Below are positions 7,213-45,352 of a DNA stretch of 45,991 bases, in pieces. The stretch lies in the IMG/VR virus record IMGVR_UViG_3300044834_000016, positions 1-45,991 of that record; one strand, written 5' to 3'. The notes beneath the pieces were generated by a model, which had not been told where the DNA came from, searched no databases, and saw nothing but the letters and a program-made list of their open reading frames with translations. Both the position numbers and the translations under genes were made by a program. Positions within the stretch are counted from its first letter, which is position 1, and every line of letters begins with the position of its first letter. Origin of the DNA: a virus.

Positions 7213-7670
7213 GCGAACGTTTCGAGCATAGACCGCAGGTGTTTGTCGGCGTTGTCGGCCCGCATGTGATCTACGTCGGGATCGCCGATCGCGCTCAATT
7301 CGACAAGATTGCCGCTCCTTGCTCGGACCATGGCGAAAACGACGATGGCCATGTTCTGGTCAAGAGCGTCCAAGGCTACGGCGTCATGGTCGTGTTTCAG
7401 TATTGGCTGAAATCCAAGACGAACGAAGCCTTCATTGCCGACCACCGCAAACGGCGCCTCGAGCGCGAGCGCAACGAACTTATCAACAGCTTCGGCGCTG
7501 GCCCGTTCGCCGACGGCAACATCCGCGATCGCATCGCGGAGATCGATGCCGAGCTTCAAGAACTTGCGGGGAGTAGCTCAAGCGCGAGAGCGCCGGGAAG
7601 TTTCCCTCCTGGAGATGCGGTATCGAATCCGTCCCCCGCTCCACCCAAGCCAGCGGAGACGCGGCGATGA
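7209..7670 (+). CDS. Hypothetical protein with coiled coil (153 aa)
   Basis: The start ATG overlaps the previous stop by four bases. The N-terminal half is probably beta-rich (FVGVVGPHVIYVGIADRAQF); residues about 78-120 form a charged coiled coil (KRRLERERNELINSFG) with a second helix, RDRIAEIDAELQEL. The tail is rich in Ser and Pro. Its function is unknown. Confidence 0.65.
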   Translation: MSERFEHRPQVFVGVVGPHVIYVGIADRAQFDKIAAPCSDHGENDDGHVLVKSVQGYGVMVVFQYWLKSKTNEAFIADHRKRRLERERNELINSFGAGPFADGNIRDRIAEIDAELQELAGSSSSARAPGSFPPGDAVSNPSPAPPKPAETRR

Positions 7671-7951
7671 CCCTGCCTCCGATGCCCGCCGATCGGCGCC
7701 GCCGCTCCTCGCTGCCATCCGAGCGGCTGTTCGCCGCGCGGCTTGAGCACACCCGCGGGATCAGGCGCGCCATGGCCGCAGGCTTCGAGCTCGATCCGGC
7801 CGCGAGACAGGCGGGTTATGTCGACGCCCTGAGCGGCGAATTCAGGCTCAGCGTCGACGACATCCTCCACGAGGAGCACATCGACGCGCTGGCCTACCTG
7901 CAGGGCTGGCTCGCCGGAAAACGTTTCCGCAAGAACCCGATCGGAGGCTGA
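7667..7951 (+). CDS. Hypothetical protein (94 aa)
   Basis: ATGA-coupled to the preceding gene. It has an Arg-rich N-terminus and a helical core (RLEHTRGIRRAMAAGFEL; HIDALAYLQGWLAGKRF). No family was recognised. Confidence 0.6.
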   Translation: MTLPPMPADRRRRSSLPSERLFAARLEHTRGIRRAMAAGFELDPAARQAGYVDALSGEFRLSVDDILHEEHIDALAYLQGWLAGKRFRKNPIGG

Positions 7952-9483: not shown

Positions 9484-9749
9484 CGAGACGGAAGTACAGC
9501 CGCACGCCCGGACTTTTCTATCTACGGCGGTGGACAGAAAATATCGCGATGAAGGCGACCAAGGCCCGCCTTGACAAGGTCGACGGGTTGCTCATCGAGA
9601 TTGCCGCTTTGTGGGGTGAAGAGGACCAATACATCTGTCAGCAGATGGACGAACTGCGCGAGCATGTTGCCGACGCAAAAAAGCTCATCGTCGAAGGCCA
9701 TGCCGAATTGGTTGAACAGCGGCGTCTCGATCGAGAGGCGGCCCAATGA
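9480..9749 (+). CDS. Coiled-coil hypothetical protein (89 aa)
   Basis: ATGA-coupled. After a basic N-terminus the protein is an extended acidic helix (KARLDKVDGLLIEIAALWGE; ELREHVADAKKLIVEGH). An internal ATG is possible as the start of the helical part. Its function is unknown. Confidence 0.6.
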   Translation: MTRRKYSRTPGLFYLRRWTENIAMKATKARLDKVDGLLIEIAALWGEEDQYICQQMDELREHVADAKKLIVEGHAELVEQRRLDREAAQ

Positions 9750-10033
9750 GCATGCGCTTCAAGCTCCCGCCTGGTGGCGACTGCCCGCCGATCGCGGCGG
9801 CGCGGCGGATCTGGCTGACGCCCGAGGAATTCAAGGCGCAGCTGCCGGAGCTCGAGCAGCGCGGCTTTCCGCACGCCGACCCCACCACCGGCAATTACGA
9901 TCTCGACGCGATCGACGCCTGGCGCCGCGCGCGTTATCCACACCTGTTCGCCGATCGCTTGACCCTCGCCCCCACCGCGCGCAACGCTAAAGACGTTGTG
10001 TCCGAACGGGTGGCGAGGATTCGGAGTGGGTAA
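9746..10033 (+). CDS. xis: Excisionase-like DNA-binding protein
   Basis: The 95-residue protein contains RIWLTPEEFKAQLPELEQRG followed by FPHADPTTGNYDLDAIDAWR. This is the winged-helix pattern of excisionase/AlpA-like proteins: a short helix, a wing, then a helix that reads DNA. It lies immediately before the integrase, the usual place for a recombination directionality factor. Expected role: bend DNA at attP/attL/attR and drive excision. Confidence 0.65.
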   Translation: MSMRFKLPPGGDCPPIAAARRIWLTPEEFKAQLPELEQRGFPHADPTTGNYDLDAIDAWRRARYPHLFADRLTLAPTARNAKDVVSERVARIRSG

Positions 10034-10034
10034 A

Positions 10035-11297
10035 GTGGAGATCCGCTATTACGTCACCCGCGGCGGCGACAAGCCCGGCTCGCGCAAGCTCGGCTACTGG
10101 GCGCCGTGTCTGGCGCGGCGATCGAAGATCTCCGGCAAGATCGAACCGACGCTGATGGCCACGCTCGGCTTCAAGCTGGTCGATTGCGGCGAGGATGGGC
10201 CGCACGCCTGGTCGATCGCCAAACAGTGGAACGATCGCTGGGATCTCGCGCTCAAGCAACATCGCAACGGCGAGCAGGTCGGCAACCCCGCAAAGATCGC
10301 GCGCGTCTATCCGCCCGGCAGTCTCGGCGAGGCCTTCACCAAATTCCGCGGCACCAACACCTGGGGCAAGAAGGCGCCGCGCACGCGCGAGGGCTGGGAG
10401 CGCGGCTGGAAGTACATCGACCCGATCTTCGGCGACGTCGATCCGCTGACGGTCTCGCTCGAGGATCTCGACGGCTGGTACGCGGCGCTGCTCGCCAGCA
10501 CCACCGTCGGCGAGGCCTACCTCGCCATGAAGATCTGGCGCGCGCTGTGGAAGGTCGCCGGCTCGCTCAAGAAGGCCAGCGGCGAACGCTACTGCGACAG
10601 CAAGAACGATCCCTCGCTCGGCATCCGCCGCGAGACCCCGAAGAAGCGCAGCGCGATCTGGATCCACGACGAGGCGCGGCGGCTGGTGAAGCGTTCCTGG
10701 CGGATGGGGTTCAAGGGCCTCGCCGCGGCGCTGGCGGTGTCCTGGGACACGCAATTCTCGCCGGCCGACGTCCGCAGCGTCACCAAGGCAAAACTCTCTC
10801 CGGAGGCCCAGGGCGCGATCTTCTCGCTATCGCGGGCCAAGACCGGGCGGGCGGCGATCGGCACGCTGAGCTACAAGACCGAGCGGGTGCTGCTGGCCTA
10901 CATGGCGAGCCTGCCGTTCGAGCTGCATCCGGACATGCCGATCTTCCACACGCGCGGCGCCGGACCAGGTCCGAAGGGCGGCCGGCCGCGCGCCCCGGCG
11001 CCCTACAGCAAGGACACGCTGTCGAAGGATTTCCGCAAAGTGCGCAAGATCGAGTTTCCGGGCGACAAGCGCACCATCATGGACTTCCGCCGCTCAGGCG
11101 CGGTCGAGGCCACCGCGGGCCAGGTCGATCCGGCGGCGCTCGCCGGCAAGATGGCCAACTCGATCGACACCAACCGCGAGCTGCAGGCGACCTACAAGCC
11201 GAACCACACCGCGGTGGTGCGGCTCGCCGACGAAGCCCGCGCGCGGGGCCGCACGTTGATGCGCGGCTCAGTGAACGCAACGGGACCGAAAAAGTGA
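10035..11297 (+). CDS. int: Phage integrase (tyrosine recombinase)
   Basis: The GTG at 10035 is preceded by GGAG eight bases upstream, giving 420 residues; GTG 10026 is an alternative. The C-terminal half holds the catalytic pattern: an Arg box (QFSPADVRSVT), a Lys/beta-hairpin region (SRAKTGRAAIGTLSYKTE), a DFRRSGAVEA box where HxxR normally stands (His replaced by Asp), and the nucleophile Tyr in LQATYKPNH (codon 11193-11195). It integrates the phage at a tRNA gene: a tRNA-Asp 3' fragment and repeated arm sites start directly after its stop codon. Confidence 0.9.
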   Translation: MEIRYYVTRGGDKPGSRKLGYWAPCLARRSKISGKIEPTLMATLGFKLVDCGEDGPHAWSIAKQWNDRWDLALKQHRNGEQVGNPAKIARVYPPGSLGEAFTKFRGTNTWGKKAPRTREGWERGWKYIDPIFGDVDPLTVSLEDLDGWYAALLASTTVGEAYLAMKIWRALWKVAGSLKKASGERYCDSKNDPSLGIRRETPKKRSAIWIHDEARRLVKRSWRMGFKGLAAALAVSWDTQFSPADVRSVTKAKLSPEAQGAIFSLSRAKTGRAAIGTLSYKTERVLLAYMASLPFELHPDMPIFHTRGAGPGPKGGRPRAPAPYSKDTLSKDFRKVRKIEFPGDKRTIMDFRRSGAVEATAGQVDPAALAGKMANSIDTNRELQATYKPNHTAVVRLADEARARGRTLMRGSVNATGPKK

Positions 11298-11514
11298 CCG
11301 GAGTCGAATTTTTCGAATGGCCGGAGTCGAATCTGGCGCGATGGAGGTGCTTAAGTGTTTGAAATGATGGCGCGAGAGACGGGACTCGAACCCGCGGCCT
11401 CCGCCGTGACAGGGCGGCGTTCATCAAGCCTTTTCATCGTCCGATTCGACTCCGGCCGGGGAAAAACCGGCTGCAAACCCCCGGGGATTCGACTCTGAGG
11501 GGACCGGAGTCGAA
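11298..11514. repeat. Five arm-type repeats flanking attP
   Basis: CCGGAGTCGAAT is found at 11298-11309 and 11321-11332 (plus), its perfect inverse at 11444-11455, a diverged inverse (ATTCGACTC conserved) at 11487-11498, and CCGGAGTCGAA at 11504-11514 (plus). Two lie on one side of the tRNA fragment and three on the other. The first follows the integrase stop directly. This is the arrangement of integrase arm-binding sites around an attP core. Confidence 0.75.
11368..11421 (-). other. attP: attP core: 3' part of a tRNA-Asp gene
   Basis: On the minus strand this reads as the 3' portion of a tRNA: anticodon stem CCGCC/GGCGG, loop CTGTCAC with anticodon GTC (11410-11408), variable region, T arm GCGGG-TTCGAGT-CCCGT, acceptor strand CTCTCGC, G and CCA (11370-11368). 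The D arm and 5' acceptor strand are missing, so it is not a complete tRNA gene. Such a fragment is what a phage carries to restore the host tRNA after integration. The exact crossover limits cannot be set without the host attB. Confidence 0.85.
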
Positions 11515-11585: not shown

Positions 11586-12224
11586 ATGAGCGTCACCGCC
11601 TATCCCCTCCAATGGCCGGAGGGCTGGCCGCGGTCGCGGGGCCGCAAGTCCGGCCAGTTCGGCAAGCAGGAGACGGTGAGCACCAACACCGGATCGTGGC
11701 GGTCGAAAACCGACCTGACCATGGCCGACGCCATGAAGCGGGTGAAATACGAGCTCGAGCGCCTCGGCATCAATGTCGCCGACGATTCGATCGTCTCGAC
11801 CAACCTCAAGCTCAACCTGTCCGGCCTACCCCGCGGCGACCAGGGCGAGCCATCGGATCCCGGGGTCGCGGTCTATTTCCAGAAAAAAGGCGGCCCGATG
11901 CGCGTCATCGCGATCGACGCCTATTACCGGGTCCGCGACAACGTGGCCGCGATCGCCGCCACCCTGGAGGCCATGCGGGCGATCGAGCGCCACGGCGGCG
12001 CGCAGATCCTCGAGCGCGCCTTCACGGGCTTCGCAGCCCTGCCCTCGCCCGGCAAGAACTGGTGGGACGTCCTGCAGGTCAGGTCCGACGCTAGCCGCGA
12101 CGTCATCGAGACCAACTTCCGGCGCCTGGCGCACGATCGGCATCCCGATCGCCAAGGCGGCAGTGATGACGCCATGGCCGAGCTCAACGAGGCGCGCGCG
12201 GCCGCGCTGAGGGCGCGTGCATGA
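11586..12224 (+). CDS. J-domain (DnaJ-like) protein
   Basis: A C-terminal J domain starts near residue 159 (WWDVLQVRSDASRDVIETNF) and carries the HPD tripeptide at residues 186-188, the motif that stimulates DnaK ATPase. The N-terminal 150 residues are a separate unknown domain with YRVRDNVAAIAATLEAMRAI and a strand, GPMRVIAIDAYY. It probably recruits host DnaK to a phage process. It is the first gene after attP in a second rightward coupled group. Confidence 0.8.
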   Translation: MSVTAYPLQWPEGWPRSRGRKSGQFGKQETVSTNTGSWRSKTDLTMADAMKRVKYELERLGINVADDSIVSTNLKLNLSGLPRGDQGEPSDPGVAVYFQKKGGPMRVIAIDAYYRVRDNVAAIAATLEAMRAIERHGGAQILERAFTGFAALPSPGKNWWDVLQVRSDASRDVIETNFRRLAHDRHPDRQGGSDDAMAELNEARAAALRARA

Positions 12225-44425: not shown

Positions 44426-45352
44426 TCACAAAAAGCCGTCGCCGGCGTGATCGTCGAAGCCTGAATCGCGGCGGTCGTATTCCCTGAGCGTGTTGACGTC
44501 GGTGTGGCGCGTGATGCCCATGATCTTGAGCAGGTCGACGCCGTTCTCGAGCGACGTCGTCACGAAGCCCGCGCGCATCGAGTGTCCGGAATAGATCTTC
44601 TCGTCGAGGCCGATCGCCCTGATCGCCCGCTTGACGATCCGCGCCACGGATCGGCCGGTCAGCGCTTTTGCCCCGACGCGGCCGTGTCGATCGACTTCGC
44701 GGAAGATCGGGCCGTCGGTTAGGCTGGAGGCCTCGAGCCAGGCCGAAAGTGCAGCGACAGGCTGCAGCTTGCTGCCGCGCGGGATCGGGATCTCGGCGCC
44801 GCGGCCCTCTTGGTCGGTCTTCGACCGCCGGATCTGCAGCACGATGCCCTTTGGCCGCCACTCGATGTCGTTGACTTTTAAGTCAACAAGCTCGGACCGG
44901 CGCAGCGCCGCGGCAAAACAGACCAGCACGATCGCCTTGTCGCGGTGGCCTGCCAGCGTGTCGGGAAACAGCGCCAGCAGCCTGGTGATCAGCTCCGCCG
45001 TCGCCGGCGCCTTCCTGGTTCGCTTGCGGCCCTTGGTGCGCCGGATCCCGCGCATCACAGCCTTGACGCCCTCGGCGTTGGTCGGCGGCTCGTGGCCGGC
45101 TGACTTGTGGGCGTAGCGGATCGCGGCGACGCGCCGCTCGATCGTGGAAACCTTCTTGCCGCCGTCGGCGAGCTGCGAGAGATATTTTGCGACCCCGATC
45201 GGCGTCGCCGGCAGCGGGATCTCGCTCGTCGCCTCGCACCAGGTGGTGAAGTCAGTCCAATCCGACCCGTAGCCGCGCCTGGTGCTTTCAGACTTCTCGG
45301 CGGCGAGGTAGGCTCGCACCGAAGCCAGGGGATCGACGAGCTCGGTGGACAT
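44426..45352 (-). CDS. Second tyrosine recombinase
   Basis: 308 residues with an N-terminal SAM-like core-binding domain (residues 10-110) and a complete catalytic set: Arg-151 (ALRRSEL), Lys-178 (RRSKTDQ), His-257/Arg-260 (GHSMRAGF), His-283 (GITRHTDV) and Tyr-292 (LREYDRR). It is not beside attP and is transcribed with the methyltransferase group. It may resolve multimers, invert or exchange DNA, or be an integrase of an inserted element. No recombination site was found for it. Confidence 0.9.
   Translation of the reverse strand: MSTELVDPLASVRAYLAAEKSESTRRGYGSDWTDFTTWCEATSEIPLPATPIGVAKYLSQLADGGKKVSTIERRVAAIRYAHKSAGHEPPTNAEGVKAVMRGIRRTKGRKRTRKAPATAELITRLLALFPDTLAGHRDKAIVLVCFAAALRRSELVDLKVNDIEWRPKGIVLQIRRSKTDQEGRGAEIPIPRGSKLQPVAALSAWLEASSLTDGPIFREVDRHGRVGAKALTGRSVARIVKRAIRAIGLDEKIYSGHSMRAGFVTTSLENGVDLLKIMGITRHTDVNTLREYDRRDSGFDDHAGDGFL

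Follow-up and report, generated by a model that had tools for sequence, protein, structure and literature searches.

Immediately downstream of an integrase gene in a virus record, a fragment of a tRNA gene lies amid short repeated boxes, an arrangement that raises the question of whether it is the site by which a phage joins its host chromosome, and, if so, at which host gene and by means of which enzyme. The window, meaning the whole stretch of DNA analysed, is a linear virus record of 45,991 bp, and an earlier note made from its letters had read positions 11298-11514 as an attachment site (attP) built on the 3' part of tRNA-Asp with five arm repeats around it. Our analysis supports the view that this segment is a complete phage attP whose layout is of the ordinary, textbook kind. 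What escaped the earlier reader is that the adjoining integrase is without canonical catalytic residues and that the phage has a second recombinase; the attP is ordinary, and the unusual part is the integrase family together with its switching arm boxes. The features concerned are listed here by position in the window, with the places of boxes given as approximate distances in bp from the anticodon loop.

9746-10033, + strand: small conserved gene of 95 aa overlapping the start of the integrase gene (int), candidate recombination directionality factor (RDF/Xis)
10026-11297, + strand: int, 423 aa, a divergent tyrosine recombinase whose N-terminal domain takes the place of the arm-binding domain of lambda Int
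11298-11309, + strand: putative left arm site P1, CCGGAGTCGAAT, at -104, conserved in relatives
11321-11332, + strand: putative left arm site P2, CCGGAGTCGAAT, 23 bp from P1, at -81
11352-11366, - strand: TTTCAAACACTTA element between P2 and core, perhaps IHF-like, with a weak resemblance to the IHF consensus
11368-11419, - strand: attP core, 52 bp of tRNA-Asp(GTC) running from the anticodon stem to the 3' CCA, matched exactly in dozens of genome loci
11406-11412, - strand: anticodon loop CTGTCAC with its CCGCC/GGCGG stem, always within the attL/attR repeat, likely the 7-bp overlap
11444-11455, - strand: putative right arm site P'1, CCGGAGTCGAAT, at +39
11486-11497, - strand: putative right arm site P'2, CAGAGTCGAATC, at +82
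11504-11514, + strand: putative right arm site P'3, CCGGAGTCGAA, at +102
44426-45352, - strand: second tyrosine recombinase, of canonical type and XerD-like, 308 aa, matching PF00589 above the cut-off

The stop codon of int occupies 11295-11297 and the tRNA fragment begins at 11368, 70 bp downstream, in agreement with the spacing given in the earlier note. Read on the minus strand, the fragment comprises the CCA end, the T arm, and the anticodon stem and loop of tRNA-Asp, the anticodon being GTC and the loop falling at + strand positions 11406-11412; ARAGORN reported no complete tRNA anywhere in the window, which is what a fragment should give. A 38-base piece of it has exact copies at 82 genome loci, most of them in Bradyrhizobium and some in Nitrobacter and relatives, and both the naming of the fragment as the 3' part of tRNA-Asp(GTC) and the prediction of that gene as the host attachment gene are borne out by these genome matches. 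Its claimed extent (11368-11421) was right at the start and too long at the end, because the exact match stops at 11419 in most genomes: identity runs from 11367/11368 to 11419 in 66 comparisons with tRNA-Asp sites, almost all of them from Bradyrhizobium or relatives, and from 11359 to 11419 in five. The core is thus identical to a host gene segment of 52-53 bp, which is restored on integration, with integrated relatives at tRNA-Asp retaining the full tRNA on the attL side. Since the matching genes are mostly those of Bradyrhizobium, a Bradyrhizobium-like host is predicted for the window phage.

Relatives caught in the integrated state provide the most direct evidence for the attP reading. An integrase relative is carried by 14 of 266 Bradyrhizobium genomes, and a class-wide search of 385 Alphaproteobacteria, in which few candidates were scored per genome, returned no family member outside the seed genome. 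The tRNA-Asp(GTC) gene adjoins the integrase relative, as the earlier reading would lead one to expect, in seven of the nine smaller extracted Bradyrhizobium loci (L148, L149, L151, L152, L154, L155 and L156), and prophage G046 has its attL/attR at this gene too. Direct attL/attR repeats of 49-67 bp bound an integrated element at tRNA-Asp in eight genomes. In G046 (an 8.09 Mb contig) an element of ~41.9 kb lies between 56-bp repeats, with the full tRNA-Asp on one side and its 3' fragment on the other; the other repeat-bounded elements are either larger (~44.4 kb in G108, 42.2 kb in G001, 56 kb in G172) or smaller (16.9 kb in G195, 16.0 kb in G251, 15.8 kb in G161, 9.9 kb in G072). The anticodon loop is part of every repeat, and a repeat may stop just 2-3 bp past it, in keeping with strand exchange at the loop, the classical place of exchange in tRNA genes (review PMC8371274). 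Besides the window, the attP state is seen in L004, L009, L012 and L028, an attL with whole tRNA in L010, L011, L015, L018, L023 and L024, and an attR-type junction in the virus contig L032. Insertion of relatives elsewhere, which would have spoken against this host gene, was seen only for a very distant phage of Microcystis, yong2, whose layout is the same but whose fragment is that of tRNA-Arg(TCT).

Four Bradyrhizobium elements of ~10-17 kb (L164, L165, L166, L167) have the same att repeats and carry the integrase, and L167 contains a phage capsid gene; they could be satellites or deletion remnants. The small islands were set aside as proof of independent mobility because they are possibly deletion remnants and because that of G251 carries an ORF resembling, by eye, a serine recombinase.

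The boxes around the core are two direct GAGTCGAAT copies on the left and three on the right (orientation < < >). Their shared motif GAGTCGAA occurs seven times in the window against 1.94 expected, a number that no shuffle reached, and five of these copies, at 11301(+), 11324(+), 11445(-), 11488(-) and 11507(+), fall within 217 bp; at the expected rate, the probability of five in one given stretch of that length is ~5e-13. The longer CCGGAGTCGAA is found four times in the window, always at attP, versus 0.07 expected. Computed positions and a count far above chance therefore uphold the two-plus-three arrangement in both orientations described earlier, whereas the single box sequence given for it holds in part: the fourth box (11486-11497) reads CAGAGTCGAATC and the fifth CCGGAGTCGAAC, so that the part common to all five is GAGTCGAA. 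Repeated arm sites thus occur on both sides, with a spacing conserved across relatives; the counterpart of P'1, for example, lies at +39 in L004 and L032 and at +50 in L009 and G046. At the place of the TTTCAAACACTTA element, 19 of the 82 tRNA-Asp loci have a CTAAGnnnTTGAA motif.

The same layout is present in free phages, prophages and islands, and the boxes recur at the same positions in the attP, attL and attR of relatives, which supports their being parts of the att site. Relatives with boxes of the TCGAA type repeat the window layout, some of them (L009-L012, L015, G046) with distances that differ by ~10-11 bp or a multiple of it, which amounts to about whole turns of the helix. Other clades have boxes of different sequence at nearly the same places, AGTCGGAA in G108 and AGTCAGAA in L084; further types are AGTTGGAA (L018, L023, L024, G161, G072, G123), GTGTCACA (L040, G251, G172, L028) and AGTTGAAA (G195). 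The box positions of L020, L065 and L101 were unreadable with the known box types. When five box types were placed on a maximum-likelihood tree of the integrases, from which L084 was left out as it has only a fragment of int, they required four changes, the minimum possible, as against a mean of 11.2 for shuffled types, with 0 of 200 shuffles as low as four. Box sequence thus follows integrase clade while positions stay fixed, as expected of integrase arm sites, and from this joint change of box and enzyme we infer that the integrase binds the boxes.

Two loci depart from the usual arrangement. In Nitrobacter Nb-311A (L083, 2900-3500), boxes of the TCGAA type lie left of the core and those of the TCAGAA type right of it, at the standard distances, as expected for two different elements in tandem in one tRNA gene. 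In L143 and L145/L144 (G046), int is on the three-box side rather than the two-box side, the reverse of the window arrangement.

The int ORF opens with TTG at 9996, and conservation starts at the GTG at 10026. Searches of Pfam, PHROGs, NCBIfam and the PDB by profile or sequence found nothing that matches its product; among 23 aligned relatives, six match Phage_int_M (best E 1.2e-5) and four PF00589 (best E 0.0029), all weakly. The AlphaFold model (pLDDT 86.6) nonetheless has the fold of a core-binding plus catalytic domain: its best PDB match by Foldseek is lambda Int 1z1b (E 7.4e-8, probability 1.00, 392-412 alignment columns, covering almost the entire protein), with probability 1.00 also to Cre, XerA and XerH. 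The nucleophilic Tyr (Y390), the Lys (K272) and Arg II (R355) are invariant in 34 of 34 relatives, as are R270, R349, R356, D248 and D353. The canonical Arg I, traditionally regarded as indispensable in enzymes of this class, is absent from all 34, replaced by Ser (28), Ala (4), Asn (1) or Gln (1), its position and those of the His residues having been paired through low-score, low-identity hhalign alignments to lambda Int and the second recombinase, used for this pairing only, together with motif order. The His II position, paired with lambda H308, is variable and holds His in only four of the 34, there beside a one-residue insertion, while the His/Trp III position, paired by motif rather than by a scored alignment, is Asn in all. 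R270, two residues before the catalytic K272, is our candidate for the part of Arg I, by analogy with the downstream arginine of the CTnDOT integrase; the invariance of R270, K272, R355 and Y390 is as expected if catalysis has been kept. A literature search combining tRNA-Asp, Bradyrhizobium or a non-canonical catalytic arginine yielded no paper.

The absence of canonical Arg I and His from the protein adjoining attP invites a division of labour in which the 10026-11297 protein would bind only the arms and the canonical 44426-45352 recombinase would cut and join. The closest relatives keep the latter, at ~9-10 kb from int in those for which both genes were located, and it occurs in the window, G012, G277, G009, G279, G007 and the prophages G046 and G108. 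Profile searches, however, found neither a PF00589 protein nor a serine recombinase (PF00239) in G278 (62.7 kb), G013 (53.7 kb) or the complete phage yong2, all of which retain the unusual integrase and attP; nor was PF00589 found inside the 10-17 kb elements among the matches listed, and a protein confined to arm binding would sit uneasily with the invariance of K272, R355 and Y390. Such a two-protein system is therefore unlikely. As relatives with the same attP lack it, the canonical recombinase was set aside as the catalyst, and we argue that attP does not need it; the unusual integrase, to judge from these gene contents, is most likely sufficient for integration.

Less likely still, and in our judgement quite improbable, is that the 10026-11297 protein has the recombinase fold but acts as a repressor, with the boxes as its operators, as in the case of MrpR, the SPbeta repressor, which has this fold with Ser, Val and Asn at the lost Arg/His positions and is inactive in recombination (PMC10516654). 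Against this, the boxes lie to either side of the att core and accompany attL and attR at spacings of about whole helical turns, and the key catalytic residues of the integrase are invariant, with int adjoining the tRNA gene or fragment in nearly all elements. A third reading, prompted by the metagenomic origin of the window record, which comes with no host genome of its own, would make the tRNA fragment a relic of decay and the boxes repeats unconnected with it; this is scarcely credible given a layout intact in free and integrated relatives, a box number far above chance, and the attL/attR pairs that contradict it.

We therefore hold it very probable that 11298-11514 is an attP served by the 10026-11297 integrase through five arm sites, with exchange in the tRNA-Asp anticodon loop, arm binding, the exact crossover and the part of catalyst being our interpretation. 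The N-terminal domain of the integrase would bind the five GAGTCGAA arm sites and its catalytic half the tRNA-like core, the DNA would be bent with host help, and strand exchange would take place in the host's tRNA-Asp(GTC) gene, inside the anticodon loop; the tRNA 3' end would then be supplied by the phage core, leaving the gene whole. The catalyst would be the 10026-11297 enzyme, though without Arg I and the last His at canonical positions. Against it in this role stand MrpR, in which loss of the same residues accompanies loss of recombinase activity (PMC10516654), the canonical recombinase that the window phage encodes as well, and the low identity of the alignments from which the Arg I and His positions were read.

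Excision may involve the 95-aa gene, which in family members outside the GTGTCAC clade for which upstream sequence is available lies just upstream of int, overlapping it or within ~75 bp. Its product has no Pfam match, its AlphaFold model (confidence 66.8, middling) has an HTH-like layout, and, among the best-ranked Foldseek matches, the highest probability (0.63) went to the Mesorhizobium excisionase RdfS (8dgl), with a non-significant E of 0.89. Other neighbours include, directly after attP in the window (11586-12224, +), a gene whose product carries a DnaJ domain at its C-terminus (phrog_9210), and a gene resembling it by eye adjoins attR in L032. L004 has, between int and attP (7254-7826, +), a gene with an integrase-like N-terminal start and a MUG113/T5orf172 (GIY-YIG-like) domain, and in L021 and L027 the N-terminal region of the integrase is matched a second time right after int.

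Taken over the family, the sequences make it fairly likely that these are active phage integrases, mostly invisible to standard profiles, able to catalyse recombination although the canonical Arg I is missing and both His positions differ, and that their arm sites have changed sequence four or more times within an unvarying geometry. As the usual profile libraries miss this integrase, its prophages and islands in Bradyrhizobium are easily misannotated. The arm boxes come naturally in six or more sequences, all at fixed positions and each paired with an integrase of its own; such a set is ready material for learning how DNA is recognised by an arm-binding domain, and might provide orthogonal tools for integration into a single tRNA gene of rhizobia.

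In the attP of lambda, two-plus-three arm sites (P1, P2 and P'1-P'3) surround the core. The window site shares this arrangement, and its integrase shares with lambda Int, its best structural match, separate N-terminal and core/catalytic regions, but has no significant sequence match to it, with Ser at the Arg I position and Asn for the last His; moreover, unlike lambda, the target is a tRNA gene and the right arm sites are of mixed orientation. The absence of a canonical Arg I is a feature in common with the CTnDOT integrase (IntDOT), in which another, downstream arginine takes over, and with IntDes, where Arg I has moved and another residue stands for the first His (PMC8138268), but these come from Bacteroides elements and from Desulfovibrio, respectively. 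With R270-x-K272 as candidate, the window enzyme may join IntDOT as a second case of a moved first catalytic arginine. MrpR, a recombinase-inactive repressor that retains three of the seven catalytic residues (PMC10516654), is similar in its recombinase fold and in that Ser and Asn occur where catalytic Arg/His have been replaced, and differs in that the integrase family keeps Arg II, Lys and Tyr invariant and has its gene next to attP. A distant member of the family, 36% identical and with Gln at the Arg I position, is the 'integrase' of Microcystis phage vB_MweS-yong2 (OM681334); after it, too, comes a tRNA fragment, with four boxes spaced alike (read by eye), but the core there is that of tRNA-Arg(TCT) and the boxes read AAGTCGGAT.
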